A DNA stretch of 37,293 nt, from contig JAGLHQ010000098.1 of assembly GCA_023143375.1 (NCBI GenBank), forward strand, positions 1-37,293. Reading direction: 5' to 3'. Positions 3,552 to 32,599 of the stretch are shown piece by piece. Source of the stretch: Planctomycetota bacterium. Lineage in GTDB: Bacteria; Planctomycetota; Phycisphaerae; Sedimentisphaerales; Anaerohalosphaeraceae. The first letter of the stretch is position 1. Each line of letters begins with the position of its first letter. The notes under the pieces are model-generated. The model saw only the letters and a list, made by a program, of their open reading frames with translations, was not told the DNA's origin and ran no database searches. A program made the translations under genes and the position numbers.

Positions 3552-3552
3552 C

Positions 3553-5172: not shown

Positions 5173-5263
5173 GCTATATCTCCAGTGAATTCTCGAAAAC
5201 GCCAAATCTACGCCAGAACACCCGCAATGTCAAGCTTGTGTGTTTGATTTTGAAAAGTGCACC

Positions 5264-5284
5264 AAACTGCCTTTAGGCAGAGAA
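5264..5284 (+). repeat. 21-bp dispersed palindromic repeat, copy 2
   Basis: Contains the palindrome CTGCCTTTAGGCAG. It matches the minus strand of 811-831 at 20 of 21 bases. It lies in the 257-base gap between the gltX start and the end of the first sensor kinase. Confidence 0.65.
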
Positions 5285-5347
5285 GCTCTTGATCCATCAA
5301 TTGCCTGAGGGTGACACGTCTGGAATCCGTTATATTCAACAAGGTCA

Positions 5348-5379
5348 AGTGCACCAAAAGTACACCAAAAGTTCACCGG
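5348..5379 (+). repeat. Three 11-base AGTNCACCAAA units in tandem
   Basis: AGTGCACCAAA, AGTACACCAAA and AGTTCACCGG follow each other with a period of 11 bases. A fourth unit AGTGCACCAAA lies at 5256-5266, directly before the 21-bp palindromic repeat. Their purpose is unknown. The spacing close to one helical turn would suit a protein-binding array, but no candidate regulator is visible. Confidence 0.45.
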
Positions 5380-5429
5380 TTGTGAATTTCCCAATGCCGC
5401 CAGTAGGCATTAGTACTCATTCTTTAGGA

Positions 5430-7877: not shown

Positions 7878-9040
7878 TTGACAGTAACACCTTCCATAGC
7901 TTCATCCCATAATAATTTTAAACCGTTGCGGTCCCTTTTTGAGTAGGTGTGTTGCAGTATCCGATTCTCGCTGAAGAAATTCGGCTGCCCAACATGCAAT
8001 CGTTCCTTTTCTTCGGCTGTCAACAGATCGCCAATATTGGTAACTATTGGAGTCATCGACATGAGCCGCATTGTATGGTTAATCTGGTGTTCTGTCGAGA
8101 GTAATTTGTTGATGTACTCCTCCGCGACTTTCTTTAAAAACGGCTTATCCGCCAACGCCCAAGTGATCGCATAGTTATAGATCCAGCACGGCATCCCCTC
8201 AGAAGGCTCGGCCATTTTCCATGGTTCCCCACGCTTCTTAAGCGAGTCCAGCGAGTCTCCCCATGATGTGGCAAGAGGCTTGCCCGCGAGATCATCGGGT
8301 TTATCCACGCCAACCCAAAAAGAATTCGCATTGACAGCCAGTTGCCTCAACTTATCTTTGAACTCTTTGTTGTTTAATTTGTCATAACTGCTAATAGATT
8401 CTCTCGGATATCCCAACGCCAACGCAGTGATGTTGCAATTATATATGTATTCGTTTGCAGCTATAACGTATTTACCCTTAAAACGCCGGTCCCACAGTAT
8501 ATCCCAACTCGCCGGCTCATCTTTCAGCAAAGCCGTATTATAAGCCAACCCGTACGGCCCCTGACTGATTGGGGATGCATATACCTTTCCGTCGCTGTAC
8601 AAATGTTCTGCCGTCTGAAGGACAGGTATTACGTGCTGAAAATTCGGTATATTCTTCAAGTCAAGCGGTAGCAAAAGCTTGTTCCGAATGTATTTGAAGC
8701 GTTCGTCCTTGTAATGGTGATGCATCATCATAACCATATCAACGCTTTTGTCTCTTACCGAGTCATAGAAATCATCGGAACCTGTCACATACGCAACTTC
8801 CAGTTTCACTTTGCGATCGTATTTCGTCTCGATATATTTCTCGAATTTCTCGACATGCGCTTTCGAAGCGTGCCCCTCCCAGACCAACAGCCGCAGTACA
8901 TCATCTTGACGCTGAACAGCCTGAGGTTCCGTTTGGGTTTCCTGGGTGGAAACTTCCGGAGCCTTCTTACGGCACCCCGTTGCAAGAACAACACATGACA
9001 GGATCATCAATGTAATTATTGTTTTCAAGTAACATTTCAT
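7874..9040 (-). CDS. PotD-like periplasmic binding lipoprotein (module 1)
   Basis: A 388-residue extracellular solute-binding protein of the PotD/SBP_bac_8 type. The lipoprotein signal peptide ends at the lipobox LATGC with Cys23. The mature fold shows segments typical of spermidine/putrescine-binding proteins: LRLLVWEGH near the start, [32 protein letters not shown] and the late EYINKLLS region. No permease or ATPase gene is nearby, so a transport role is unlikely; the overlap with the kinase gene suggests a ligand-sensing role, by analogy with NspS, the PotD-like partner of MbaA in Vibrio. The ligand is not known. ATG at 9040 has AAGGGAG upstream. It follows the porin-like gene by 28 bases. 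Confidence 0.92.
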
Positions 9041-9068
9041 GGCATCTCCCTTATATCAATATCACAAT

Positions 9069-9539
9069 TTAGAATTCAAATCCATATGATATACCAACCC
9101 AAAACTCGTCTTCTGTGTTGATAGTTTTTTCCATCGATGTCTGGTAGTACAAAGCGGGAGTTATAGTGCCGCTTCCAACTTCAAAGCTTGTTGACAGGCC
9201 CCACGTCATGTGTGACCAGTCATGGTCAACGGCTGATCCTTGACCGTCATTGTAAGTTATGTCCCAGCTAAATGTAAGCGGATTCTCAATTATCTCCAGG
9301 TCAGGCAGATCGCAACTGAAACCGAACAGGTGCGTAAAGCCCTCGACCTTATCAGCAGTTATGGCCCCGCCGCCATGGGCGGCGTGATCGTCATAAATAT
9401 CCTGGCCCCTCCAGATGTACTTACTTACCCAGGTGACATCATAGGAAATACCCAATTCCTTTTCATCTCCACCCGCAAAAGCGATTGAAATATTACCGTT
9501 CAATACAACAGCAATGATAAGTATTACCAGTTTTTTCAC
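9069..9539 (-). CDS. Small outer-membrane porin-like protein
   Basis: A 156-residue exported protein. A signal peptide (MKKLVILIIAVVLNG... to IAFAG) is followed by a region rich in alternating residues beginning SYDVTWVSKYIWRGQDIYDD. This resembles the start of the TorF/Gcw_chp group of putative porins, where a WxSxYxWRG pattern recurs. The last residue is Phe (SYGFEF), as in outer-membrane barrels. It is shorter than the 220-260 residues I would expect, so it may be a reduced barrel with an internal deletion. The start is GTG at 9539 with AAGGAC about 10 bases upstream. It heads the operon porin - binding lipoprotein - histidine kinase; the second module lacks this gene. A ligand-entry role is possible but is inference. 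Confidence 0.72.
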   Translation of the reverse strand: MKKLVILIIAVVLNGNISIAFAGGDEKELGISYDVTWVSKYIWRGQDIYDDHAAHGGGAITADKVEGFTHLFGFSCDLPDLEIIENPLTFSWDITYNDGQGSAVDHDWSHMTWGLSTSFEVGSGTITPALYYQTSMEKTINTEDEFWVGISYGFEF

Positions 9540-9596
9540 ATCTATGTCCTTATCTGTTTCTTTCTAAACCCGTTATGAATATACATATCCGTATTT

Positions 9597-9644
9597 GTCG
9601 GCAAAATCGAAAGGATTTTGTGAGGATAATCCGGATTAAAACGG
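9597..9644 (-). promoter_or_regulatory. Conserved upstream element of sensory operon 1
   Basis: This stretch aligns with 12946-12999, the region upstream of the second sensory operon. Shared pieces, in plus-strand order, are TCGRCAAAA, AGG, TGAGGATAATCC, ATT and AAAC. The two operons otherwise differ at their 5' ends (porin gene here, lipoprotein gene there), so conservation of this block suggests a common promoter or operator. The core is TGAGGATAATCCGGA; at the other copy it is a perfect inverted repeat. Confidence 0.55.
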
Positions 9645-9658
9645 CAATCATGCAAAGT

Positions 9659-11737
9659 TTAGACAGCCACAGGCAGCGAAACAAAGAACTTACTCCCTTT
9701 GCCCGGTTCCGATTCGACCCATGTCCAACCGCTGTTACGATCTAAGGCTCGCTTGGTTATTGTAAGGCCCAGACCCTGGCTATCGGTTGCATCATCCGGA
9801 TTAAGGCGATGGAACAGTTCGAATACTTTACCCTGATGATTCTTATGTATTCCAATACCGTTATCTTCGACGCAATAGATACATTCGCTGTTATCGCATC
9901 TGCCTGTGATATTGATGGAGCCTTTTCTTTCCGGGTCAAAGTACTTTATGGCATTGCCTATGATATTGCTGAATACCTGATTGACAAGCTTTTCGTCACC
10001 CTTACAACCCGGCAACTCTTCGATCGTTACAGATACATCCTGCTCTTTGATCTGGAATGCGAATGTATCTGCTATGTCATGGACCATCTTGTTCATGTCC
10101 AGCGAGTCAATATCGACCTCTTGGCTGCCAACACGAGAAACCTGCAACAGACCGTCAAGAAGCATTTTCATCTTGCTGGTTCCGGCAGATATAAACCCTA
10201 AAGATTCAGGGATTTCTTCATCGATCAAGGGAACTATCCGATGCATTGCTTCATCCCTTACATCAATATCTTTTAATCTCTCTGTAATCTCTCTACAGGT
10301 TTTATTAAGCATATCACTAAAGCCGGTAATATTTACCAGCGGACTCTTAAGATCGTGTGAGGCAATATAAACAATGCTCTTCAACTCTTCGTTCTTGGCA
10401 GAAATATCCTTTAAAAGTTTTTCGCGTTCTTTTTCATTTGTGATTAGTTGCTGGTTAGATGCCTTTAGCTGCTGTTCTGATGACATAAGTTGTTCGTTGA
10501 AAGATCGCAGTTGTTTGTTCTTTTCAATGATCTCTGCCTCCGCCTGCTTGCGCTCGGTGATGTCCATAAAAGTTACAACGGACCCTGTTATTTCGCCATC
10601 GCGTCTTGTAGGATACGACCAGAATTCCGCCGGGAAACTCGTCCCGTCTGCCCGCCACAGAACCTCACCGTCAATATGAACACCCTTTCCAACCTGAAAC
10701 GCCTTATAGATTTGGCATTTCTCGATCGAACAGGCCGACCCGTTGGTATGCGTATGATGAATAACCTCGTGCATGTTTTTGCCAGGAATGTCTTCGGCAC
10801 TATTATATCCAAGCAACTCCAAACAAGCCCGATTGCAGAATGTACAATTGCCATTAAGATCCAAACCGTAAATAGATTCAGCCGTTGAATTGAGCAGCAT
10901 GCGAACCTGCTCCTCGCTTTCCCGAAGTGCCTCCTCGGCACGCTTACGCTCGTCAAGCGATGCCTGAAGGTTCGTGACCATATCATTGAATGAGCCTGCA
11001 AGAAGTGTTAGCTCATCGTTTCCGTCTCGTTTAATATCTACCCTTGCTTTCTCCAGATGATCCAGATCGACTCTCTCGGTTGCTGCGGTCAATATCGACA
11101 AAGGCCTTTTCAAAATAGACTTGAAAATCCACTGAAAAATAAACCACAAGATAGTAATTTTAAAAACAGTCGTAACTACCAGTAATAAAAATCCCAGCTT
11201 CACTCTTCGCAAAATCACAGATTTATTGGAATATATCGTAGCTTCGCCAAGCTGTTTCTTGTCATCATCAAAAGTGTAAACAATTGGAAATCGGTGCTCA
11301 AAAAGTTCGTAATCAGATTCGTCTCCCCGACGATGCATCGAGTGCGTGTGCTTACGGCTCATCATATGAATATGCAGATCAAGCCTGCCAACCTCCCCGT
11401 CCTGTTCAATTATTCCTCCCGTAGTTATACTGTTTCCGCTATCATCGCTGATCTTAACACCAACGATCACAGGTATTTTCAACATTCCTTTCAACGTCAA
11501 ATGCAAGGACTCCTGATCCATTTTCCACATGTCAACCGCCATCGCATGCTCGAACGTTCTTTGAATGTCCTCAAGATCATGGCTGATGTTGTTTTTCTGG
11601 TACCGATATTCCATAACCATATGACTTATCGTCACCACAGCCGCAATAATGATGTATAAAGCGAAAACCACCCGCAGCAACTTTGTTGCTATTGAATGCC
11701 TGCCCCTTACCGTATTTTCCGGTTTCATAGCCCTCAT
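9659..11737 (-). CDS. Membrane sensor histidine kinase with one PAS domain (module 2)
   Basis: A paralogue of the kinase at 5430-7877, 692 residues from ATG at 11737. Order: transmembrane segment at about 20-42, periplasmic region to about 180, second transmembrane segment to about 205, HAMP, one PAS domain at about 280-395, coiled linker, HisKA with phospho-accepting His near residue 461 (ASHDLKSPL) and HATPase with DNGIGI and GQGLGLT. The periplasmic region carries a His/Met-rich loop (HIHMMSRKHTHSMHRR) absent from the paralogue. ATG overlaps the lipoprotein stop as TGATG; GTG at 11740 and ATG at 11728 are alternative starts. No receiver domain and no response regulator are nearby. The binding lipoprotein encoded upstream is the likely periplasmic partner. 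Confidence 0.94.
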   Translation of the reverse strand: MRAMKPENTVRGRHSIATKLLRVVFALYIIIAAVVTISHMVMEYRYQKNNISHDLEDIQRTFEHAMAVDMWKMDQESLHLTLKGMLKIPVIVGVKISDDSGNSITTGGIIEQDGEVGRLDLHIHMMSRKHTHSMHRRGDESDYELFEHRFPIVYTFDDDKKQLGEATIYSNKSVILRRVKLGFLLLVVTTVFKITILWFIFQWIFKSILKRPLSILTAATERVDLDHLEKARVDIKRDGNDELTLLAGSFNDMVTNLQASLDERKRAEEALRESEEQVRMLLNSTAESIYGLDLNGNCTFCNRACLELLGYNSAEDIPGKNMHEVIHHTHTNGSACSIEKCQIYKAFQVGKGVHIDGEVLWRADGTSFPAEFWSYPTRRDGEITGSVVTFMDITERKQAEAEIIEKNKQLRSFNEQLMSSEQQLKASNQQLITNEKEREKLLKDISAKNEELKSIVYIASHDLKSPLVNITGFSDMLNKTCREITERLKDIDVRDEAMHRIVPLIDEEIPESLGFISAGTSKMKMLLDGLLQVSRVGSQEVDIDSLDMNKMVHDIADTFAFQIKEQDVSVTIEELPGCKGDEKLVNQVFSNIIGNAIKYFDPERKGSINITGRCDNSECIYCVEDNGIGIHKNHQGKVFELFHRLNPDDATDSQGLGLTITKRALDRNSGWTWVESEPGKGSKFFVSLPVAV

Positions 11738-12903
11738 CACTCGACGTTGATTCCTTCCATGGCCTCATCCCACAACAATTTTAAACCGTTGCGGTCCCTT
11801 TCTGAATAGGTGTTTTGCAAAATTCGATTCTCGCGGAAGAAATTCGGAGTTCCAATGTGCAATCGTTCCCTTTCTTCAACTGTCAACAGATCGCCGGTGT
11901 TTGTAATTATTGGGGTCAGTGACATCAATCGCGTTATATGATTAATCTGATATTCAGTTGAGAGAAATCTATTGATGCACTCCTCAGCCACCTTCTTAAG
12001 AAATGGCTTATCAGCCAGCGTCCAGGTGATCGTATAATTATCGATCCAGCATGACGTACCCTCTTTCGGCTCAGCCATTTTCCAAAGCTCACCTCTTTCC
12101 TTTAGCCCGCTCATCGAGTCGCCCCACGCTGTAGCCAAAGGCTTACCGGCAAGATCGTCAACTCTGTCAGCACCGATCCAGAAAGAGTGAGCACCGGCAG
12201 CCAGTTGCCTCAACTTATCTTTAAACTCCTTGTTGTTTAGTGCATCGTAACTGCTGACCGATTCTTTCGGATACCCCAACGCCAATGCGGTAATGTTACA
12301 GTTATATATATATTCGTTTGCACCTATGACATACTTGCCCTTGAAACGCGGTTCCCATAGTATATTCCAACTGGAAGGCTCCTCTTTCAGTATGCCGGTG
12401 TTGTACGCCAGCCCGTAAGGACCATGGCTAACCGGCGATGCATACACCTTTCCGTCACTACACAGGTACTCCGCGTTTTGCAGAGTAGGTATCACATTCT
12501 TGAAGTTGGGTATGTTCTTCAGATCAAGCGGCAAAAGAAGCCCGTTCTCGATGTATTTGTATCGCTCGTCTCTAAAATGATGATGCGTCAGCAAAACCAG
12601 ATCAACGCGCTTGCTCCTTATTAATTTATACCAATCATCAGGACCGGACAAATACACCAGCTGTACTTTCACTTTTCGTCCGTACTTCGTTTCGATATAT
12701 TTCTCGAAATCTTCGACAAATTGTTTTGGAGTGTGCCCCTCCCCAGTCAGAATTCGCAAAACATCCTCTTGAACCGAAACAGGCTGAGCCTCCGCCTGGC
12801 CTTGCTCGCCAGCCCGCTGCGGAGCTTTCTTACGGCATCCCACCGCAAGAACAAGGCATGACAAAATAATTAACACGATAATTGACTCAAAACGGTGATT
12901 CAT
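11737..12903 (-). CDS. PotD-like periplasmic binding lipoprotein (module 2)
   Basis: A 388-residue paralogue, of identical length, of the protein at 7874-9040. The lipobox is LAVGC with Cys23. The same landmarks recur: [51 protein letters not shown]. The N-terminal lobe is less conserved (EDVLRILTGEGHTPKQFV here against [18 protein letters not shown]), so the ligand may differ. No ABC permease or ATPase gene accompanies it. ATG at 12903 has AAGGGG upstream. The gene ends inside the start of the kinase gene. It is divergent from the cysteine synthase gene. Confidence 0.92.
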   Translation of the reverse strand: MNHRFESIIVLIILSCLVLAVGCRKKAPQRAGEQGQAEAQPVSVQEDVLRILTGEGHTPKQFVEDFEKYIETKYGRKVKVQLVYLSGPDDWYKLIRSKRVDLVLLTHHHFRDERYKYIENGLLLPLDLKNIPNFKNVIPTLQNAEYLCSDGKVYASPVSHGPYGLAYNTGILKEEPSSWNILWEPRFKGKYVIGANEYIYNCNITALALGYPKESVSSYDALNNKEFKDKLRQLAAGAHSFWIGADRVDDLAGKPLATAWGDSMSGLKERGELWKMAEPKEGTSCWIDNYTITWTLADKPFLKKVAEECINRFLSTEYQINHITRLMSLTPIITNTGDLLTVEERERLHIGTPNFFRENRILQNTYSERDRNGLKLLWDEAMEGINVE

Positions 12904-12945
12904 GGTTTTCCCCTTAGAATGCTCAACATTTTACAAAACCTCGAT

Positions 12946-12999
12946 ACTTATCGACAAAACCCGGAGGCGTCTTGAGGATAATCCTCATTCAAACAACGG
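12946..12999 (-). promoter_or_regulatory. Conserved upstream element of sensory operon 2
   Basis: This copy matches 9597-9644. At its centre, 12973-12987, is the perfect inverted repeat TGAGGATAATCCTCA (7-base arms around one base), a plausible operator for a dimeric regulator. It ends 43 bases before the lipoprotein start codon. The adjoining 13000-13110 is AT-rich and shows nothing else I can name. Confidence 0.55.
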
Positions 13000-13110
13000 T
13001 TTTTTAGGGTTGCCCCGCAAAATAAAAACCGCAAAAAAACCACGCTTTTTCCCGCAATTCTCTAAAAAACACCATTTTTACCACTCCGATATTTTTTTTT
13101 GTTGTTTTTT

Positions 13111-13119
13111 TGCTATAAT
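13111..13119 (+). promoter_or_regulatory. Extended -10 promoter of the cysteine synthase gene
   Basis: TGC followed by the perfect hexamer TATAAT (13114-13119). No good -35 is present; the upstream stretch is T-rich. The predicted transcription start near 13126 leaves a leader of about 28 bases that carries the AGGAG ribosome site. Confidence 0.7.
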
Positions 13120-13153
13120 ACAGAGGTTAATCAATCGCATCAGGAGAATATTA

Positions 13154-14062
13154 ATGTCAATACTATCTTCAATCGGCAATACACCGCTTGTGGAGTTGAA
13201 AAAGCTTAACGAAAACCCGAACGTCAAAGTCTTCGCCAAACTCGAAGGCTCAAACCCGGGCGGATCGATAAAGGACCGCCCTGCGCTGTATATGATCGAA
13301 AAAGCCGAAGAGACCGGCGAACTGACCAAAGACAAGATCATCATAGAGCCAACCTCTGGAAACACCGGCATCGCACTTGCAATGATCGGAGCGGCAAAGG
13401 GGTACAAAGTAAAACTAACACTCCCCGGATGTGTCAGTTCCGAAAGACGCTCGATTCTCGAAGCCTTCGGCGCTGAGGTCGTAATCACAAAAGCGTGCCA
13501 CAAGACCGACGGAGCAATACGTAAGTGCCATGAGCTATACGCCGCCAATCCCGACAAATACTTCTTCCCAAACCAGTTCGCAAATCCAAATAACCCGCTT
13601 AGCCACTATGAAACAACGGCACCGGAGATATTCGATCAAACCGACGGAAAGATAGACGTTTTCATTGCAGGCATGGGAACGACAGGGACGCTTATGGGAA
13701 TATCGAAATTTTTCCGTGAGCAGGCTAAAAACATTAAGATCATTGGAGTAGAGCCTACCCTCAACCACACAATACAAGGTCTTAAAAATATGAAAGAAGC
13801 AATTGTGCCCGATATTTATGACACAGATATGCTTGACGATATAATCGTAATGGAAGACGAAGAAGCCTTTGAAATAACAAAAAGACTTGCCGTAGAAGAA
13901 GGTATCTTCGCCGGTATCTCAAGCGGAGCCGCTATCGCCGGGGCTCTTCGCGTCGCAAAACAGATGGACTCCGGCGTCATCGTTACCATCATCCCAGACA
14001 GAGGAGACCGTTACCTGAGCACCAACCTCTTCCGCTCAGTATGCGCCGAATGCCCCCCGTAA
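13154..14062 (+). CDS. Cysteine synthase (CysK/CysM family)
   Basis: A 302-residue PLP-dependent enzyme that makes cysteine from O-acetylserine (or a related activated serine) and sulfide. The PLP lysine is Lys40 in NPGGSIKDRPA; the phosphate loop PTSGNTGIALA is at 66-76. MGTTGTLMG and the C-terminal SSGAAIAG also fit. The start is ATG at 13154 with AGGAG upstream; an open frame extends to 12902 but lies before the promoter and has no conserved content. The short C-terminus, ending in CAECPP, and the LTLPGCVSSERR segment look closer to CysM than to CysK. It is not in an operon with other sulfur genes. Confidence 0.93.
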   Translation: MSILSSIGNTPLVELKKLNENPNVKVFAKLEGSNPGGSIKDRPALYMIEKAEETGELTKDKIIIEPTSGNTGIALAMIGAAKGYKVKLTLPGCVSSERRSILEAFGAEVVITKACHKTDGAIRKCHELYAANPDKYFFPNQFANPNNPLSHYETTAPEIFDQTDGKIDVFIAGMGTTGTLMGISKFFREQAKNIKIIGVEPTLNHTIQGLKNMKEAIVPDIYDTDMLDDIIVMEDEEAFEITKRLAVEEGIFAGISSGAAIAGALRVAKQMDSGVIVTIIPDRGDRYLSTNLFRSVCAECPP

Positions 14063-14195
14063 CACAGGCTTTCGCATCAAAACTACCGATCATCGCAAAA
14101 AACTTGTTGTTTCAACGCTTTTTTTGTCGAAATAACTGCGTATCCGGTGTATTAATGCCATCATTAAAGTAAATTTTCCAAAGGAACAGGCAAGA

Positions 14196-15923
14196 ATGGA
14201 CAATGCAAGCAACAACGAAACGAACGAAAATACCAACGAATCGCTGGATTTTATCCGCGCGGAGATCGCTGACGATATTAAGAACAATCTAAACGACGGA
14301 CGGGTGCATACCCGTTTCCCCCCCGAACCCAACGGCAGGCTCCACATCGGACACGCAAAGGCATTTTGCCTTAACTTCTCCATCGCAAAAGAGTTCGGCG
14401 GAAAATGCAACCTGCGATTCGACGACACCAACCCGATCAAGGAAGAACAGGAACACGTAGAGGCGATAATGGAAGACGTCAAGTGGATCGGATGGGACTG
14501 GGAGGACCGGCTCTATTTCGCATCGGACTACTTCGACCAGATGTATGAATGGGCGAGGCAATTAATAAAAGACGGAAAAGCCTACGTCTGCGACCTTACA
14601 CCGGAGCAAACCCGCGAGCACCGCGGCTCACTAAAGGAGCAAGGAAAGGAAAGCTCATACCGCAACCGCGACATCTCAGAAAGCCTGGACCTGTTTGAAA
14701 AAATGAAAAACGGCCAGTTCCCCGACGGCACCCGCTGTCTTAAAGCAAAGATCGACATGACCAGCCCAAACATCAACATGCGCGACCCGGTCATGTACCG
14801 CATCCTCCACGCAACGCATCACCGCACAGCGGACAAGTGGTGCATCTACCCGATGTACGATTGGGCGCACGGGCTCGAAGACTCCATCGAAGGAATAACC
14901 CATTCGCTTTGCTCGCTGGAGTTCGAGAACCACCGCCCGCTATACGACTGGTTCATCGACCAACTGAACATCCACCACCCGAAGCAAAGAGAGTTCGCCC
15001 GGCTGAACCTTACATATACGGTAATGAGCAAACGCAAACTCGCAAGGCTCGTCGAAGGCAACCACGTCATCGGCTGGGACGACCCGCGAATGCCCACCAT
15101 CTCCGGCCTGCGACGAAGAGGATACAGCCCAGCAGCCATACGCAACTTCTGCAAAACCATCGGCATCGCAAAAACAGACAGCACGATAGACTTAGCCTTG
15201 CTGGAGCATTGCCTCCGTGACAACCTTAACGCAACATCGAATCGTGTCATGGCCGTCGTCAACCCGCTAAAAGTCGTCATAACAAACTATCCCGACGACC
15301 AGGTCGAAGAGCTTGAAGCCATCAACAACCCGCAGGACGAATCTGCCGGAACACGCAAGGTTCACTTTACAAAAGAACTCTACATCGAGCGTGAAGACTT
15401 CATGGAAGACGCTCCGAGAAAATTCTTCCGCCTGTCTGTGGGCAGAGAAGTACGCCTGCGATACGCATACTTCGTAACCTGCACCGACGTCGTAAAAGAC
15501 GAAAACGGCCAGGTCACCGAACTGCACTGCACGTATGACCCAGCCACAAAAGGCGGCGACGCACCGGACGGCCGAAAAGTAAAAGGAACCATCCACTGGG
15601 TAAGCACCACAGAATCGTTAAAGGCGAAAGTAAACGCTTGCGACAACCTGTTCACAAAAGAAAACCCGGAAGCAACCGAAGATGGACAGGACTTCATAGA
15701 CAACCTTAACCCCGACTCGCTAAGCGTTCTGGAAAACTGCTTTGTGGAAAAATCACTGGCAAACACAACGCCGGGTGATCGCTACCAGTTTGAAAGGCTC
15801 GGATACTTCTGCACAGACACCGAAAGCAGCGAGGGGAATCTTGTCTTCAACAAAACCGTCGGCTTGCGAGACACCTGGGCAAAACTGAAAAAACAAAAAC
15901 AGAACGCACCGAAGAAAAAATAG
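14196..15923 (+). CDS. glnS: Glutaminyl-tRNA synthetase
   Basis: GlnRS, 575 residues, charges tRNA-Gln directly. The HIGH motif lies in [16 protein letters not shown] with HIGH at residues 50-53; the KMSKS-type motif is VMSKRKL starting at 276. [16 protein letters not shown] and [14 protein letters not shown] are family hallmarks, and the two-part beta-barrel anticodon domain follows. The tail is lysine-rich ([11 protein letters not shown]). ATG at 14196 has AAGGA about 10 bases upstream. Codons ending in C are strongly favoured, in contrast to the giant protease gene at 24155. The presence of both GlnRS and GluRS suggests the amidotransferase route is not needed for Gln-tRNA. Confidence 0.97.
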
Positions 15924-15930
15924 TAAAATC

Positions 15931-15964
15931 CGTAGGATGGGCAAATCTTTTGCCCATGCGGTTA
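15931..15964 (+). repeat. Dispersed repeat B, copy 1 (GTAGGATGGGCAA...TTGCCCATGCGGTT)
   Basis: An imperfect palindrome (ATGGGCAAA-TCTT-TTGCCCAT) flanked by CGTAGG and GCGGTTA. Related copies lie at 18223-18256 and, inverted, at 35243-35273. It fills the gap between the ends of two convergent genes and abuts the stop codon of the TauE-like permease gene, so it may also act as a bidirectional transcript end. Confidence 0.75.
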
Positions 15965-16771
15965 CTAAATGCCCGGTTGGACCGTCAGCATCTTTATCGC
16001 CGAAAGCAGCACCACGACGATGAACACTGCGCGTACAACTTTTTTTGGCAGGATGTGCATTGAGTGTCCGCCGATGTAGCCTCCGATAAACGCCGTCGGG
16101 ATAACGCACGCTGCTATCTTAAGCGATTCGACAATACTGATCCCATGGCTTGCAAGCGTTGCGTTTTTATAAATAGCTCCGGCAAACGACGAGCAAATGA
16201 TTACCGCCGCCGAGTTACTCATCGCCCTTTTGATGGGGATCTTCAAGGCAAGCTGTTGCAATATCGTTGCCACCGACCCGCCGCCGATACCCAGCAAACC
16301 GCCGCACACACCCGTAAGCAAGCCGACGCCAAAAGCTTTTCCCTCGTCGTATTTCAGTTCGGGAACCGCAGCGTCATAGCCGCCATCGCTGCTCTTGCGA
16401 AAAAGTTTAACAACGCTCATCACTCCTACATAAAGCAAAAAGCCCCCGAACACCCTCGCCAGCAGGTAGCTGTTTTCGCCCTGGAACAATTTGCTGTTGC
16501 TAACTGCAACGCCTATTGCGGTACCGATCAATGCTCCGGGGATGAGCCATTTGATAACAGATGGAACGATGGCCCTGGCTTTGTGATGCGCAATAACCGC
16601 TGCCGCTGAAACAAAGAATATGCATATCATACAAGCCGCCTGGTACAGGTGCTGGTTTTCACCGCCGATAAGCACCAGTGCAGGTATCATGATTATTCCG
16701 CCGCCGATACCGATAAGCCCGCCAAAAAGCCCCATCACCAAACCGACCAGGATCAAAAGAAGATATTCCAT
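15965..16771 (-). CDS. TauE/SafE-family membrane permease
   Basis: A 268-residue polytopic inner-membrane protein with about eight hydrophobic segments. It has the two glycine-rich half-repeats of the family: GLFGGLIGIGGGIIMIPAL near the N-terminus and GVCGGLLGIGGGSVATI in the middle. Members are linked to export or uptake of sulfite and organosulfonates; the substrate here is unknown. ATG at 16771 overlaps the trpC stop codon (TAATG), so it is translated with trpC. An upstream in-frame start would lie inside trpC and adds only a non-conserved charged stretch. No sulfur gene is adjacent on this strand, although the cysteine synthase gene lies about 2 kb away. Confidence 0.92.
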   Translation of the reverse strand: MEYLLLILVGLVMGLFGGLIGIGGGIIMIPALVLIGGENQHLYQAACMICIFFVSAAAVIAHHKARAIVPSVIKWLIPGALIGTAIGVAVSNSKLFQGENSYLLARVFGGFLLYVGVMSVVKLFRKSSDGGYDAAVPELKYDEGKAFGVGLLTGVCGGLLGIGGGSVATILQQLALKIPIKRAMSNSAAVIICSSFAGAIYKNATLASHGISIVESLKIAACVIPTAFIGGYIGGHSMHILPKKVVRAVFIVVVLLSAIKMLTVQPGI

Positions 16772-22337: not shown

Positions 22338-22396
22338 GCGGTGAAGATTATCCGATTTTGAAGTGATAATCAATAGCGCATTTCAAAAGGGATATC

Positions 22397-22551
22397 GGGC
22401 GCAACTGAAGGGACCGGGTCCCCCTTTTTTATAAAATGGGCAAGATAGATACTCACACGTATTTTTCTGGCCTTCCTCTTTTCTTTTTTTCCAGGCGCAA
22501 TCAAGGGAAACCGGGTTCCCTTTTTGGTATAATAGGCAATTTAGAGACTCG
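22397..22551. repeat. Two tandem hairpin repeats upstream of thiE
   Basis: Two related units of about 58 bases start at 22397 and 22492. Both contain GGCGCAA, an inverted repeat and a T run, then ATAAWATRGGCAA and AGAKACTC. The stems differ but pairing is kept: GGGACC/GGTCCC at 22410-22422 and AAGGGAA/TTCCCTT at 22503-22522. On the plus strand each hairpin is followed by T5-T6, so both look like intrinsic terminators, although no plus-strand gene ends here. A minus-strand frame of 73 codons covers both units and shows paired Cys motifs, but this follows from the repeat. Confidence 0.6.
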
Positions 22552-22606
22552 GTTATCAGCTTTCGTCTGGTTTTAAAAAAAAATGTTAAATTTCTACAAA
22601 ACATAT

Positions 22607-22634
22607 TTGACTTGTTATTTATATAGTGTATAAT
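22607..22634 (+). promoter_or_regulatory. Strong orphan sigma-70-type promoter
   Basis: TTGACT (22607-22612), a 16-base spacer and TATAAT (22629-22634). The predicted start near 22641 coincides with a 5' hairpin GACTTA-AGA-TAAGTC (22641-22655). The next plus-strand gene begins only at 24155, so this promoter either drives an RNA gene or gives the protease gene a 1.5-kb leader. Confidence 0.65.
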
Positions 22635-22817
22635 ATATATGACTTAAGATAAGTCAGCATCAACCCAGCAGGGTCAGGATTCAGATCAAGAGATCACGTT
22701 CAGGCAGCAGCCACAGAAATAATCAGTGCCGGCAAAGCCGGACTCCACGCAGTTAAGAAAAGGGGGACAAATAAACAAAGTAATCAAAATTGAATATTGA
22801 AATTGCAAACAGCGCAC

Positions 22818-22850
22818 AAAAAAAGAGCCGGCCTCCTCCGGCCCGGCTCT
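22818..22850 (-). terminator. Intrinsic terminator on the minus strand
   Basis: Read on the minus strand, GAGCCGG and CCGGCTC form a 7-bp GC stem (22825-22831 with 22843-22849) followed by seven T (22818-22824). No annotated minus-strand gene ends here, which points to an unrecognised minus-strand transcript starting somewhere in 22860-24150. Confidence 0.65.
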
Positions 22851-23110
22851 ACTTACACCCTGGCGAGATTGATATCCGTATAGTTCAAGATTTTATCACA
22901 TCTGCGCCAAGAGAGTACTTTATACAATAGCACCATCTATAGGCATGTGATTCATTGAGCAACGGCTATGCCATTTTGCGTGAAATAAATACGATTTTGA
23001 GAAGCTGGTCATAAGTGCCTTGTTTGAAAATTGTTACAAGATCGCTGCATTATTAAAATATATTCCTGAAATGTTAAAGGATTCGGCTATGTTTCGAAAA
23101 TACAACGAAT

Positions 23111-23133
23111 ACCGAAGTTAAGTGTTCGGTTTT
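23111..23133 (+). terminator. Terminator-like hairpin on the plus strand
   Basis: ACCGAA (23111-23116) pairs with TTCGGT (23125-23130), followed by TTT. It would end a transcript of about 490 bases from the orphan promoter at 22607. The stem is short. Confidence 0.4.
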
Positions 23134-23194
23134 AGCGTTCTTATCGGACGTAAGGCTCTGAAATCGGTTGTATTTGTACCGATGTTTATAAAAC

Positions 23195-23217
23195 GCAACG
23201 TCCTTTAGGGGCGTTGC
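23195..23217. repeat. Palindrome GCAACGTCC-TTTA-GGGGCGTTGC
   Basis: A near-perfect stem with a TTTA centre, of the same design as 698-713 and 5264-5284. Confidence 0.5.
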
Positions 23218-23635
23218 TTAAATTGTAATTTAAATCAAAATCAAATATTGAAAATTTGGGTGAAAATGAAATAAGTGCGTTCCGAGCCGATCATGGAGAG
23301 GCGGTGGGTCTGGAAAACGGCTGTGATGGGGCCGTGAGGGCCGAAAAAAGGCTGGAAGTGGTAAAGAGGAGTCGTTTTATTGCGGGAAAAATAACAGAAA
23401 GAACTTACGAAAAAACGTGTTTTTTATGACAAAAAAACACAAAAAAATACAAATGCGCGCACCATAGCGCACCACAGCTACACAAAAGCACACTTTTTGA
23501 AAAAAACCTGAGTAGGAAAAAACTCTTAATAGTGGGTTGTTGGGCTGGAAACGCTAATTGGTGCTTGGGGGTCGGGAAAGTTAGTCGATTTAAAAGATAT
23601 TATTCACTATGAAGGCATGAAGGACATAAAGAAAA

Positions 23636-23860
23636 TCTAAAAGATAAAAGCATTTTTTTAGACAGGATAACAGGACAAGAAAAGGATCTTAAAGAAAGGT
23701 TAAAAGATAAAAACAGGTTTTCAGATAGGATCAATTCAATTTGTTATTTATTAATGACTATTTATTATTGGCGTTGAACCGCTTCGCGGGGCTAGTTAAA
23801 AAGAGAAAAAAACTGATTCACCACGAAGGACACGAAGATCACGAAGAAAAGAAAGGGAAT
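23636..23860. repeat. Degenerate intergenic repeats
   Basis: AAAAGATAAAAGCA...AGACAGGATAAC at 23638-23670 recurs as AAAAGATAAAAACA...AGATAGGATCAA at 23702-23734. GACAGGATAACAGGA resembles the subterminal tracts of the element at 545-933. TTCACCACGAAGGACACGAAG follows at 23817-23840, a tract type often seen between genes in bacteria. Confidence 0.45.
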
Positions 23861-24140
23861 TCCAACTTGCGGCTGGATTAAAAGGTTATTTTTGCCACCG
23901 AGGACAAGAGAAAAAGAGAGAGAAAAAAGGGGAAAGAAAGAAAAAAAGCTGTAACGGGCTTGAGTCAGAAAGAATATCCTAAGTGTTAATATTTGGACTG
24001 GTTAAACTTACTGATTTTTGCATAATAAGCGCCTTTTTACTATTTTTGTCTTGATTTATTATTCGTATATTTTACATTCGTGCCGCAGGAGAAAAAGCTG
24101 ATGAAGAGATCATCAGAACACGTTTCTATTTTTTTATCTT

Positions 24141-24147
24141 AAGGAGG
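24141..24147 (+). promoter_or_regulatory. Consensus ribosome-binding site AAGGAGG
   Basis: The only perfect AAGGAGG noted in front of a gene in this window, seven bases before ATG 24155. It supports that codon as start although the apparent signal peptide begins 39 codons later. Confidence 0.7.
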
Positions 24148-24154
24148 TATCACC

Positions 24155-27100
24155 ATGTTAAGAAAGAGATGTATTGCACTAATGTTAATTGAGGTTCTGT
24201 GCATGTTGAGGACAACGGTAATGAAAGGGTTTCATCGAAACACAGTTTTTTATTCCAAGGGAAGAAGTGCAATGTCCAATCGTAGTGTTTGTTTCATTAT
24301 ATTTTGTTTGTTATTGGCGAATGTAACATTTGCTAAAGGGATTGCCCCTAAAGAGGTATCTTCAGATAACAAAATAATACTGGATTACGAATTTGAGGCG
24401 CCATCAACTTCCAAAGATGTACAGTATGACATAGTTGGCATCGATGGTTTGGCAGATTTTTCTAAGGTAGGGGCACCAGTAGTGCCGGTACAAAATGCAA
24501 CTATTCTGATCCCTTACGGCAAGAAGGTTTCGAAAATCGAAGCAGTGGCATCGGAGTCTGTGAACCTGGACGGTTCATATTTGCTTCGTCCAGGGCAAAA
24601 ACCTGTTCCTCGTTCTTTAATTGCCGAGGCAGTACCAACAAAGCCCGATCCAAAGTACTATAGCAGTAAGCAAGCCTGGCCGGGCAAATATATTAAAAAG
24701 GTAACCACACAGAATCAAAGAGGCTATAAATTACTTATTCTGAATCTCTTTCCTGTTCAGTATGTTCCATCCGAAGGCAAAGTTTCTTATATAAGAAAAC
24801 TAAAGCTTGAGATAACTTTGTCAGAAAGTGACAAGAAGGCTATTTTGAGGCCAGATGGCAAAACAAAAAAAATAATTAAAAGCAAGATCGACAACCCTTC
24901 TTCTGTTAGCAGCTATGAATCTGAAGAAATCGGAAGTTCAGATCAGTCAGGACTGATTCTCGAGGATGTTCAGAGGTCAGGGAAAAGCATTGCTGCAAAC
25001 AAATCGCTACGTGTAGCCAGGAACAAAGCAGGTTTTTTGAAGCATGTTGGCGCTCCGTCAGGTACACAAATTCATGTACGTGATAGCGAGAAGTATAACC
25101 CCGAACAGATTGCGGATAATTTTTTGGAGCAGCAGAAAAAACTTTTTGTAAAAGACAGTTCTAATGTGGCTTTTAAAAAGAAGCGTGTTAAAACTATTCC
25201 CGGTCGTAAAACCAGAACACATGTTCGTTATCAGCAGACCTATGCCGGTATAGAAGTTTTTAACGGCGAACTTATCGTACATGTTAATGACACAAAGGGT
25301 ATTTCTGCAGTATTTAGTGACATAATGGTCGATACGGATATACTCGATAATGGAGAGGTTTCCGTTAATCCTACTCTTGATCGATTGACAGCACGTGAAA
25401 ATGCTGTTGAGTGGCTGAGTTCGCAGAATGAGGGACTTGAAATACAAGCGTCAGAGGCAACCCTTATGGTCTTTGATCCATCCGTTGTAGACCAGAAGGG
25501 GGATGTTCGGTTGGTATGGAAAATTGAAGTTGGCAATGTCGGCGTTCCTAAAGTGAAAGAAATCGCTCTTGTGGATGCACATACGGGCAGCATTGCATTT
25601 CATTATTCCCTGATATACGGGTTAGTGGACCGAGAAATTTACGATTACAGCAACGGTTCTTCTCTCGAACGTTCCGAAGGCGATCCGGTTTCCGGAATAC
25701 CAGCAGTTGACAACGTATACGATTATATCGGTGATACTTATGATTTTTATTTGTCCTATCACGGTCGAGAAGGTTACGACGACCTCGACTCCACGGTGAA
25801 AGCTTATGTTAAAGTTGATTTTGACAATGCTATGTGGAGCGGCAATTCGATGTACGTCGGTGTCGGTAACGATATAGATGACATTGTAGCCCATGAGTTT
25901 ACGCATGGTGTAACTGCCAGCGAATCGGGATTGATCTATAGCAATCAGTCTGGCGCTATTAACGAATCTTTTTCCGATATATGGGGAGAGTTCGTCGACC
26001 TTACCAACAATGCAGGTGATGACTCGGCGGGTGTTCGTTGGCGACTTTTTGAAGACTGGTATTGCTGGGGCGATCCGGACTGGGGCGAATATCCGAATTG
26101 CAGAATATGGAGAAGGATGGACTTCCCGGAAGAGGTGTTTGCCGATAGCAGTTACGGTTATACAGACGATATAGGACGACACCCCGATCGGTTCCTTAGC
26201 CCTTATTATTATTTTGGTACATCTGACGGAGGGGGAGTTCACCATAACAGTTCTGTAGGTAATAAACTATGTTACTTGCTAACCGACGGTGATACCTTTA
26301 ACGGTTATACGATCTCTCCGATGGGTATAGCAACAGTTGCCGACCTTTTCTATGAATGTCAAACTAATTCGCTGACATCATCGAGCAATTATTTCGATCT
26401 CGGAAATGACCTAGTTCAGGCTGCTATCGATCTTGATTTGACTCGGGCCCAAATTGACAATGTCAAAAAAGCTTGTCGTTCGGTTGAGATTTATTTTGAT
26501 CCCGATAGTGATGACCTGAGCATGAGGTATGCAGTTATTACCAGTGCTGCTTTAGCAGATATGGACAACATGCAAGACCCTAATTACAGTTTCCAGGCTT
26601 TATGCGATAGCAAAAGAGCTCGCGGTATTAGTGCGGGAATAATTACTACCGAATGGATATATTCAAATTACACCGGTCAGGATTCACAGGAAAAGATTCG
26701 GAATTTCATAAGTGATGCCTATGAGAACTGGGGGCTTGAGTTTGTGTTACTTGGTGGAGATAAAGGGATCATTCCGCCTCGTATGTTCTATCCCGGCGGT
26801 TTGTATTGGGGTGGCGGAATAGCATCTGATATGTATTACGGTTGCCTTGACGGTTCTTTTGATTCCAGCGGTAATGGTAAATATGGCGAAGTTGGCGATG
26901 GGGCGGATTTCGGTAGTGATAGCGAGGTTGACCTTATTGCTGAAGTATATATAGGCCGTGCATCTGCTGAAGATCCTAACGAAGTTAATAATTTTGTAAG
27001 AAAAACACTTGCATACGAGTCGACAGATGACGACTACCTGAACAATGCCCTTAGCTCTTCAGAAACTCTTACTCCAGGGTCAGATCCCTACTGGTGCAAA

Positions 27101-29785
27101 CCTTACGCTGAACTTATACGTCTTGGTTCAAGTGAAGGCGGTTTTACGACAGTTGGATTTGAGAATCCTACGTTGCCGTATCACAGGAATTTTAATGTGA
27201 CGACATTATATGATGCCGATTACGAATTTGACGGAACATTTGATTATAACGAGGACGGCTGGTCTTCACCAAACGAATTGATCCCCTTGTTGAATGGTCA
27301 AGTTGGTTCCGGTACGCCTCATATGATGTATCACGGTGCTCACGGCAACGAGCAATACTGCATGAAGACATATTTGAATGATGATAATTTTGGAATCGGA
27401 GGAATGGGCAACGATCCCGATCTTTATGGAAAGCTGGACACACTTACGAATACCAACTACTTCTTTATCTATGACGATTCGTGTTTGTCGGGTAACTTTG
27501 CCTATACAGATTGTTGGGCAGAAGTTGCTACAACAATGGATCATGGTGCTTTTGCGATCATAATGAGTTCTGAGGTTGTAGCTTCCAATGGCGGAACTAA
27601 CTGGCCTTCAACTCGTATTGTTCGTGAATTCTTCGACGAGTTGCTCGGTGACGGTAATTTCGAACTTGGAGTTGCGCATTTCAATTCAAAAGAAGGAAGC
27701 ATAGGAAGTATTTCCGATGTTGTAGTTCGCGCTACATATTATCAGTTCAATCTTTTTGGCGATCCTGAACTGAAAATGCGCACATTGCAAGATGAAACCG
27801 GTATCGAGAATGTTACCAGGAAGAATTATTACGATACTATCCAGGAAGCTATCGATGATCCTAACACTCTTGACGGTGATGTTATTGTCCTGGATACTGC
27901 AACATATTCCGGTATAGGCAACCGTGATATAGATTTTAAGGGTAAGTCTATAACAATTAGAAGTATCGACCCCGACGACCCTAGTATTGTTTCCGCTACG
28001 ATTATCGATTGCGATGGTACAAGGGCCGAGCCTCACAGAGGATTCTATTTCCATAACGGTGAATCATCCGGTTCTATAATCGAGGGTCTTACGATCACGG
28101 ACGGTTACGGCGATTTTCAGGGCGATTATTACGCAGGCAGCGGTATCATGTGCGATGGAAGCAGTCCTCAGATAATCAAGTGTGTAATCACCGGTAACGG
28201 AAACGATTCAGTTAATGACGATGTAGATGCCGGCGGAATTGCCTGCTACAACAACTCTAATCCGTTGATATCTGACTGTACCATTAGCAATAATACAGCC
28301 TACTGGTCAGGAGCGATCGACTGTTGGAACAGCAGTCCTGTTATCCGTAATTGTGTCATTAGCGGTAACACAGCTCAGTGGGGCGGTGCAATTTATTTCT
28401 ACGAGAACTGTAATGCCACGCTGGAGAACTGTACAGTCATAAACAACACTGCGATAAACAATGGCGGCGCTCTGATCATGTATCAGGCAACTCCTACAAT
28501 AACAAGCTCTATTGTTTGGGGTAACACGGCAACAATAGGCAGCCAGGTTTATATAGAAGATCTCAATTACGATCCTTTGTTTAGTTACTGTGATATCGAG
28601 GACAGTTTCTCTGGCGGCATCTGGAGATCTGGATTAGGTATTAACGGCGGCGGCAACATCAGCATTGATCCTAATTTTGTTGATGCTGCCAATGGAGATT
28701 ATCATCTGACCCCGCTTTCTCCCTGTATTGATACCGGTGATCCAAGCGGCTCTTATACCGGTCAGACAGATATTGACGGTGATGTTCGTGTGATCGGTGG
28801 TGATGTTGATATGGGTGCCGATGAGTTTAGGCAGGGTGCTCACAATATCGATCAAGACGTCTGGTATGTGATTATTCAGGATGCGATCGATGATGCCTCA
28901 ACTGATGATGTTATAATGGTTTATCCGGGCACATATGAAGAAAATATTGATTTTGACGGTAAGGCGATAACTGTCCGCAGCACCGATCCCGATAACTGGG
29001 CTGTTGTGGCTGAAACGATCATCGATGCCACTGGCATGGGGTATGGGTATGACACCGTCAAATTTGAAAGCGGTGAGGATGCCAGTTCATTCCTGAAAGG
29101 TTTTACAATAATAAATGATTATAATGCTTACGGCATATCATGTTCTGGTTCCTCACCTACTATCGGCAATTGTATTATAGAAACAGCCATGGTTGGGATA
29201 TATTGTAATTCCTCTTTGCCGGCGATAAGCGATTGTATTGTGAGAGACACTGACATTCTCGGTATTATGTTGTATAACTCTTCTGCGGTTATCAGTAATT
29301 GTATCGTGAGCAATACTTGCATGTCTGGTATATCATGTTCTTCCGAGTCCTCTGCGGTTATCAGCAATTGTGTCATAGCCGATACCGATGACGGCGGCAT
29401 AAGCTGCGATTCTACCTCTTCTTTGGAAATAAGCAACAGTACTATAGTTAACAACACTTACTACGGAGTATCCTGCTCGTCTGCTACTATTACCAACTGT
29501 ATTATTTGGGGAAATGGTGACGATCTCTCTGGGTGCAGTGCTACATATAGCTGTTTCTCAGGCGGGACAGGAACGAACATAAGTTCTGATCCGTTATTTG
29601 AGACGGGTACATTTGGTGATTACTATCTGAGCGAAGATGCTATTGAAGGGCAGGAAGATGACAGTCCTTGTATTGATGCCGGTAGTGATACGGCTGCTAA
29701 CCTTGGCTTAGACGAGCTTACCACCAGAACCGATGATGTTACTGATTCCGGTACTGTAGATATGGGTTACCACTATCAGCCGTAA
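24155..29785 (+). CDS. Giant secreted double protease (M4 + C25) with beta-helix regions
   Basis: 1,876 residues from ATG 24155; a signal peptide starts at Met40 (24272: MSNRSVCFIIFCLLLANVTF), which has its own GGAAG site, so that start is possible. Next comes a gingipain-like propeptide (about 75-190, VGAPVVPVQNATILIPYGKK), then FTP/PepSY-like inhibitory regions (about 295-490). The thermolysin-type M4 domain follows: HEFTH at 580-584, third zinc ligand Glu604 in GAINESFSD (the same 24-residue spacing as H142-E166 in thermolysin) and GGVHHNS with His696. A C25 gingipain-like domain (about 785-1200) has YHGAHG (His1063 probable) and DDSCLSGNF (Cys1110). Two beta-helix regions (about 1220-1555 and 1565-1870) end in VDMGADEF and VDMGYHYQ. 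Codon use is AT-rich compared with glnS. It is probably secreted and degrades extracellular protein. Confidence 0.93.
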   Translation: MLRKRCIALMLIEVLCMLRTTVMKGFHRNTVFYSKGRSAMSNRSVCFIIFCLLLANVTFAKGIAPKEVSSDNKIILDYEFEAPSTSKDVQYDIVGIDGLADFSKVGAPVVPVQNATILIPYGKKVSKIEAVASESVNLDGSYLLRPGQKPVPRSLIAEAVPTKPDPKYYSSKQAWPGKYIKKVTTQNQRGYKLLILNLFPVQYVPSEGKVSYIRKLKLEITLSESDKKAILRPDGKTKKIIKSKIDNPSSVSSYESEEIGSSDQSGLILEDVQRSGKSIAANKSLRVARNKAGFLKHVGAPSGTQIHVRDSEKYNPEQIADNFLEQQKKLFVKDSSNVAFKKKRVKTIPGRKTRTHVRYQQTYAGIEVFNGELIVHVNDTKGISAVFSDIMVDTDILDNGEVSVNPTLDRLTARENAVEWLSSQNEGLEIQASEATLMVFDPSVVDQKGDVRLVWKIEVGNVGVPKVKEIALVDAHTGSIAFHYSLIYGLVDREIYDYSNGSSLERSEGDPVSGIPAVDNVYDYIGDTYDFYLSYHGREGYDDLDSTVKAYVKVDFDNAMWSGNSMYVGVGNDIDDIVAHEFTHGVTASESGLIYSNQSGAINESFSDIWGEFVDLTNNAGDDSAGVRWRLFEDWYCWGDPDWGEYPNCRIWRRMDFPEEVFADSSYGYTDDIGRHPDRFLSPYYYFGTSDGGGVHHNSSVGNKLCYLLTDGDTFNGYTISPMGIATVADLFYECQTNSLTSSSNYFDLGNDLVQAAIDLDLTRAQIDNVKKACRSVEIYFDPDSDDLSMRYAVITSAALADMDNMQDPNYSFQALCDSKRARGISAGIITTEWIYSNYTGQDSQEKIRNFISDAYENWGLEFVLLGGDKGIIPPRMFYPGGLYWGGGIASDMYYGCLDGSFDSSGNGKYGEVGDGADFGSDSEVDLIAEVYIGRASAEDPNEVNNFVRKTLAYESTDDDYLNNALSSSETLTPGSDPYWCKPYAELIRLGSSEGGFTTVGFENPTLPYHRNFNVTTLYDADYEFDGTFDYNEDGWSSPNELIPLLNGQVGSGTPHMMYHGAHGNEQYCMKTYLNDDNFGIGGMGNDPDLYGKLDTLTNTNYFFIYDDSCLSGNFAYTDCWAEVATTMDHGAFAIIMSSEVVASNGGTNWPSTRIVREFFDELLGDGNFELGVAHFNSKEGSIGSISDVVVRATYYQFNLFGDPELKMRTLQDETGIENVTRKNYYDTIQEAIDDPNTLDGDVIVLDTATYSGIGNRDIDFKGKSITIRSIDPDDPSIVSATIIDCDGTRAEPHRGFYFHNGESSGSIIEGLTITDGYGDFQGDYYAGSGIMCDGSSPQIIKCVITGNGNDSVNDDVDAGGIACYNNSNPLISDCTISNNTAYWSGAIDCWNSSPVIRNCVISGNTAQWGGAIYFYENCNATLENCTVINNTAINNGGALIMYQATPTITSSIVWGNTATIGSQVYIEDLNYDPLFSYCDIEDSFSGGIWRSGLGINGGGNISIDPNFVDAANGDYHLTPLSPCIDTGDPSGSYTGQTDIDGDVRVIGGDVDMGADEFRQGAHNIDQDVWYVIIQDAIDDASTDDVIMVYPGTYEENIDFDGKAITVRSTDPDNWAVVAETIIDATGMGYGYDTVKFESGEDASSFLKGFTIINDYNAYGISCSGSSPTIGNCIIETAMVGIYCNSSLPAISDCIVRDTDILGIMLYNSSAVISNCIVSNTCMSGISCSSESSAVISNCVIADTDDGGISCDSTSSLEISNSTIVNNTYYGVSCSSATITNCIIWGNGDDLSGCSATYSCFSGGTGTNISSDPLFETGTFGDYYLSEDAIEGQEDDSPCIDAGSDTAANLGLDELTTRTDDVTDSGTVDMGYHYQP

Positions 29786-31653: not shown

Positions 31654-32599
31654 TTGACAACTGAGAACTATCCCAGCCAATACACGAAATATCTAACCTA
31701 TAATACTTCGCACGAATCTGCTTATCTACGAAGGTCCTGTAGATGACCTGGCTCGTTTGCATGAACATATAAAGATTATCGACAAGCCTGCACCGCAGAT
31801 CATGGTTGACCTGCTGGCTGTAGAATTGACAGAGGAGGCTAATCGCGAGATCGGTCTCGACTGGACATACACGCAGGGTCATATCGGACTGCTGCAGCCG
31901 ACCGGCAGCGTGATAAACGATCTAACATCGAATATTGTTGGCAATACGGTGGCAGGAACGGGACAACTATTCTATCAGGGTGTGGGATCGCTGCCGCGCG
32001 AATTCTACATTCGCCTAAACGCACTCGTTTCAGACGGTAATGGCTCTATACTGGCAAATCCCAGAACCGTAGCTACCAACGGTAAAGAGGCCACTATCCA
32101 GATTCGCAAAACGCTCAATTACTTTTTCAACGAGGGCTTTGACGATGCCGGGCGAGCTATCATTAAGAAAAGCGATATCTCCGCCGACACCGAGGGTCGT
32201 ATTACTCCAACTCTGCTGGCAGATGGTCGTATTCTTATGAATGTCGATATCAAGGTCGGTAGTTTTACATTCAGTCCCGATGCAGGCCTGCCCGAGCAGA
32301 CTAACCGTGAATCCACAACGGTTGTAACCGTTCACGAAGGGCAAACACTGATCATTGGCGGCCTGCGACAGGAGGAGACAAGCGAAAGCATTACAAAGGT
32401 ACCACTGCTGGGCGATCTACCCATACTTGGAGGACTGTTTAGGAATACAAAAAAAGAGATCAAAAACAGCGTCCTGACGATCTTCGTTACGCCTCATCTG
32501 TTGAAACCTAACGACGGATATACTCCGGAATGGCCTCAGTTGAATAGTGAAGAGTATAAGTTGGTTCCCATAATGGAAAAGCCGCCCGAGAACAAATGA
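31654..32599 (+). pseudogene. N-terminally truncated and frameshifted secretin (GspD/PilQ family)
   Basis: The frame to 32599 encodes the C-terminal beta-barrel domain of a type II/III secretion or type IV pilus secretin: PAPQIMVDLLAVELTEE, GSILANPRTVATNGKEA and the signature KVPLLGDLPILGGLFRN, then VLTIFVTPHLL. It opens only at 31697, after an in-frame TAA, with no ATG; TTG at 31757 lacks a ribosome site. Another frame with a good AAGGAG and TTG (31654) gives TTENYPSQYTKYLTYNTS and stops at 31744, one shift away from NLLIYEGPVDDLARLHEHI. The signal peptide and all N0-N2 domains are missing, and no other secretion gene is near. A remnant is the best reading; a short expressed barrel protein cannot be excluded. 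Confidence 0.75.

Follow-up and report, generated by a model that had tools for sequence, protein, structure and literature searches.

Among the genes in the window examined here, a 37,293-nucleotide contig stretch from an uncultured planctomycete, one reading frame raises the question of how two mechanistically unrelated proteases came to share a single chain, and what their arrangement implies for their activation. The initial annotation of this DNA proposed that an M4 metalloprotease and a C25 gingipain-like protease lie in one polypeptide, with catalytic residues intact and each with a matching type of propeptide. This proposal is confirmed by Pfam, a PDB sequence search and alignment, and both protease domains score above their Pfam cut-offs. 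The frame is uninterrupted, with no internal stop, and its features are as follows.

24141 to 24148, + strand: strong Shine-Dalgarno-like AAGGAGGT, six bases before the ATG at 24155 (sequence read)
24155 to 29785, + strand: whole open reading frame, nested M4/C25 double zymogen (frame read, 1876 aa)
24272 to 24334, + strand: core of a probable Sec signal peptide, MSNRSVCFIIFCLLLANVTFA, aa 40-60 (sequence inspection and inference)
24344 to 24916, + strand: C25 prodomain (Propeptide_C25; structure matches 4ief and 5mun)
24917 to 26512, + strand: inserted unit, a complete M4 zymogen, about aa 255-786 (alignments with C25 and M4 relatives)
25172 to 25312, + strand: FTP (fungalysin/thermolysin propeptide) motif, aa 340-386 (Pfam, 6e-11)
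25352 to 25603, + strand: PepSY-like part of the M4 propeptide, about aa 400-483 (M4 homology; model match 3nqz_A)
25703 to 26491, + strand: Peptidase_M4 catalytic domain, aa 517-779 (Pfam, PDB sequence search, alignment)
25892 to 25906, 25964 to 25966 and 26240 to 26242, + strand: HEFTH, E604 and H696, respectively (alignment)
26528 to 27778, + strand: Peptidase_C25 catalytic domain, aa 792-1208 (Pfam, alignment, model)
27341 to 27343 and 27482 to 27484, + strand: H1063 and C1110, respectively (alignment to gingipain R)
27872 to 28834, + strand: first beta-helix region, with a choice-of-anchor Q motif at aa 1513-1558 (Pfam/NCBIfam)
28835 to 29782, + strand: second beta-helix region, best Pfam stretch aa 1681-1807 (Pfam)

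Along the frame, Pfam places Propeptide_C25, FTP, Peptidase_M4, Peptidase_C25 and two beta-helix regions, in that order. Every match, judged against curated cut-offs, lies above them, and chance is therefore excluded. The second Met, at aa 40, opens a typical signal peptide, such that 24155 and 24272 are both candidate starts and the double protease is predicted to be an exported protein.

The C25 parts are readily recognized. Propeptide_C25 (PF08126) matches aa 95-227 (1.7e-7), the PDB sequence search returns the Lys-gingipain prodomain (1.4e-4), and the prodomain also matches 5mun_A. It is closed by an IDNPSS..Y motif (aa 245 on) that is present in most of the 18 C25 relatives aligned. Likewise, the catalytic domain matches Peptidase_C25 (PF01364) over its full length (profile positions 1-374 of 374; 2e-49) and gingipains K and R in the PDB sequence search. 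Its catalytic pair, H1063 and C1110, aligns with the gingipain R motif and is invariant in alignment A7 of the C25 relatives (19/19 rows for H1063, 20/20 for C1110). The His/Cys pair first read from HGAHG and SCLSG is thus present, with the refinement that, of the two His in HGAHG, the second is catalytic and aligns to the GH of gingipain R; the first varies.

The M4 catalytic domain is matched by Peptidase_M4 (PF01447, aa 517-587, 2e-13) and M4_C (PF02868, aa 591-779, 1e-26), and by thermolysin in the PDB sequence search (1.2e-29). Its zinc site consists of HEFTH at 580-584 (H580 and H584) together with E604, and the spacing of 20 from H584 to E604 is that of thermolysin H146 to E166. H696, in DGGGVHHN, aligns to the GGVHINS of thermolysin and corresponds to the transition-state His (thermolysin H231). 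The insert can be aligned with stand-alone M4 zymogens from the same class, beginning just behind their signal-peptide region and running through FTP, PepSY and the catalytic domain. Its ~530 residues are an M4 precursor minus the signal peptide.

Between prodomain and C25 domain, the window protein has a linker of 543 aa, compared to 16-63 aa in the 18 C25 relatives. Because this linker holds the whole M4 zymogen, the chain runs pro(C25)-pro(M4)-M4-C25-tail, that is, two prodomains followed by two proteases. Hence, the arrangement is nested and not tandem, with the M4 zymogen lying within the C25 activation linker. This order, the domain boundaries and the intact catalytic residues can be read directly from the sequence. 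Both propeptide types that the initial annotation placed at the N-terminus do exist, but the C25 zymogen is split by the FTP-PepSY-M4 unit, which follows the C25 prodomain and precedes the C25 catalytic domain. A tandem counterpart of the nested case occurs in a Spartobacteria contig (L114, RZZM01000028.1, 9-11774), where a prodomain-C25 unit occurs twice in one 3922-aa frame, at aa 170-653 and at aa 2466-3037.

Structure prediction was carried out with AlphaFold2 on aa 64-1212, using a 19-row alignment. Confidence is high for both C25 parts, prodomain and catalytic domain, moderate for the PepSY region and poor for M4, since only two alignment rows cover the latter. In Foldseek searches, this model matches mature RgpB (1cvr, 3e-16), the RgpB prodomain (4ief, 3e-10) and the Kgp prodomain (1e-8), and more weakly the autoprocessed vibriolysin MCP-02 complex (3nqz_A, 7e-3) and thermolysin. 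Prediction therefore bears out both C25 parts, whereas for M4 it yields a poor model with weak thermolysin and MCP-02 matches. From the single sequence of aa 290-1212, AlphaFold2 produced only an unusable model (pLDDT 32).

A second protein with the same nested order was found in the Phycisphaerae bacterium RS_12_20 MAG (locus L105, JAGLWJ010000550.1), as an open reading frame of 1502 aa with a linker of 558 aa. It is 46% identical to the window protein overall, and about 55% in the core. It retains HEFTH, NESFSD, GGVHHN and the C25 His and Cys, and has a Cys where the window protein has N558 (the position of thermolysin N112). Its tail is Asp-rich and EF/dockerin-like. Pfam finds the two beta-helix regions that were initially described for the window protein (Beta_helix, two stretches, 7e-26), but the L105 protein has none, which places the tails outside the conserved core.

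Knowledge of the two families suggests how such a chain might be activated. The RgpB prodomain puts an Arg into the S1 pocket and thereby blocks it, and a cut is required for full activity (PMC4357240). M4 propeptides are removed autocatalytically and serve as inhibitor or chaperone (PMC3831164). We propose that an ancestral gingipain-like C25 precursor, composed of prodomain, short linker and C25 domain, gained a complete thermolysin-type precursor within its linker. After export, M4 would fold with its own FTP-PepSY propeptide and then cut itself at the PepSY/M4 border, in a self-cleavage zone predicted just past the PepSY part (about aa 484-495). This border has both prodomains on its N-terminal side and both catalytic domains on its C-terminal side, so that a single self-cut there would sever both prodomains from both enzymes. 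What remains would be M4 and C25 joined in one chain, ending in a beta-helix tail in the window protein or a dockerin-like tail in L105, and this pair would digest extracellular proteins with two complementary specificities.

We lean modestly toward this overall reading of an exported double protease, a zymogen within a zymogen, that is activated by a single M4 self-cut and acts in extracellular digestion. That it represents the first nested zymogen in which one intramolecular M4 cut removes both prodomains and switches on two catalytic classes is put forward more tentatively, as falling a little short of an even chance. We infer enzymatic activity, activation order, single-cut activation and substrate, with the single-cut reading resting on the domain order together with knowledge of the families. 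The nested order, which the initial annotation missed, lends support to its suggestion that one protease processes the other. Its proposal of cooperative digestion is plausible, and the role is probably extracellular protein digestion, but cell wall or matrix protein as the target is unsupported. Even so, a single cut may be too little for C25, since its prodomain may remain bound after losing the covalent connection and RgpB requires an additional internal cleavage. Alternatively, C25 could cut itself.

The main competing explanation holds that the two proteases are merely tethered, each maturing by its own cuts, and that the nesting is a historical accident with no regulatory role. Each protease unit does have its own full propeptide, RgpB-type C25 enzymes process themselves, and in this class both C25 and M4 proteins are mosaics with many tail types. 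The insertion falls, however, in exactly the segment whose cutting activates C25, and nesting has been retained in two families of the class despite large sequence divergence. We therefore judge simple tethering to be unlikely, while giving it appreciable weight. Among the mosaics, the nearest stand-alone M4 relative (L079 in G013, 3413-16087) starts a 4225-aa frame full of beta-helix-like repeats, and one C25 relative (L080 in G051, 2911-7872) has BACON/HYDIN-like Ig domains spanning about 850 aa ahead of its prodomain and a dockerin after C25.

The hierarchy could also run in the opposite direction, with C25, as an Arg/Lys-type endopeptidase, initiating the process and its linker cuts releasing or trimming the M4 zymogen. 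Segments flanking the FTP are rich in Lys and Arg (aa 226-340), and C25 cuts would be possible there. Yet M4 enzymes normally remove their own propeptide, and C25 must first escape its prodomain, which makes this order of events improbable. Dead protease domains are common in mosaic surface proteins, and the C25 active-site surroundings read DDSC here versus SQGC in relatives. Nevertheless, every catalytic residue tested is intact in both fusion proteins, and it is thus very unlikely that either protease domain is inactive and acts as a binding or folding module.

Maximum-likelihood trees place the window protein and L105 in one clade, both for M4 (100/99) and for C25 (100/100), which argues for a single fusion rather than an assembly chimera. 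Although the window genome is available as a draft in many pieces (409 contigs, 2.89 Mb in total), a chimera or frameshift artefact joining two genes, as the initial annotation had considered, is given a negligible chance, because the independent L105 genome has the same architecture and shares both in-frame joints, composition is even across these joints, and the frame has no stop. The simplest account of the sequences is one old fusion event within Phycisphaerae as a class, after which the two proteins diverged over a long time while retaining both active sites; the single origin and the conservation in two genomes both follow from these comparisons.

To date, the fusion is represented by these two examples, the window protein and L105. 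In the window genome, the nested protein is the sole C25 and the sole M4 match. Across 59 close relatives, C25 occurs in 31 genomes and M4 in 3, with no other case of fusion. The closest M4 units (45-50% over the domain) and the closest unfused C25 units (about 40%) sit on separate proteins. A contig scan that covered 84,980 species, with just two peptide patterns from the C25 alignment as seeds, returned 74 loci, of which L105 carries the fusion and the other 73 do not; an earlier contig scan with the plain protein as query gave no match. No third fusion was recovered from 392 genomes of the phylum by an M4 family search in which part of the M4 matches had their flanks checked for C25, or by a fusion profile from 397 genomes in the class and 51 in the family of L105. 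Likewise, no fusion was found with a junction profile in 376 Bacteroidota genomes, nor in plasmids. These phylum, class, family and Bacteroidota samples overlap and their coverage is partial, and the survey of Planctomycetota for such fusions stands at one further case. Rarity of the M4-C25 nesting is indicated by these results, short of being proven.

Both families are well known, and what is new is the nested arrangement. The open-access literature searched holds no M4-C25 fusion and no bacterial protease that combines two families. The initial statement that no enzyme with both domains has been described agrees with that search, except that the L105 genome carries one more. Compared to the gingipains RgpB and Kgp of Porphyromonas gingivalis (MEROPS C25), the window protein shares the C25 prodomain and a caspase-like catalytic domain with its His/Cys pair, a likeness based on sequence and model matches to 1cvr, 4ief, 4rbm and 5mun at only about 20% identity. 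Unlike gingipains, it has an M4 zymogen in its linker, a beta-helix tail and no T9SS C-terminal domain (no match to Por_Secre_tail or related models in Pfam and NCBIfam). Lacking such a match, the protein does not qualify as a gingipain proper, which would be T9SS cargo. Identity as a PorU sortase was also rejected, as NF033707 scores 21.9 bits where its cut-off is 420.

Thermolysin-like proteases (MEROPS M4; thermolysin, vibriolysin MCP-02) have in common with the window protein the FTP-PepSY propeptide, HEXXH, the distal Glu and the His. Here, in contrast to those enzymes, the M4 unit lies inside another protease precursor and its N-terminal M4 subdomain is short. Exported C25 peptidases of bacteria and archaea in anoxic sediments share the signal peptide, prodomain, C25 domain and mosaic tails, whereas the 18 aligned C25 relatives, with their short linkers, have no M4 unit. 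Protease cascades are usually made of separate proteins. If the proposed activation is true, a cascade within one chain by way of two nested zymogens would be a new coupling of the activation of two mechanistically unrelated proteases. The protein also extends what little has been described of the proteolytic enzymes exported by uncultured planctomycetes of sediments, where C25 peptidases abound. In one estuary sediment, C25 accounts for >40% of the signal-peptide-bearing peptidase genes (PMC6752024).

The neighbors of the gene, which include a ThiD2/ThiE fusion, a sulfatase and a secretin-like frame, indicate no pathway. Upstream, the stretch of about 1.8 kb at 22374-24154 contains no frame >100 aa, and Rfam returned no match when this upstream region was searched for RNA or regulatory elements. 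Directly downstream of the sulfatase, at 31757-32596 on the + strand, a 280-aa frame carries a secretin domain (PilQ/GspD-like, with all matches below NCBIfam cut-offs) and looks like a short or broken secretin.
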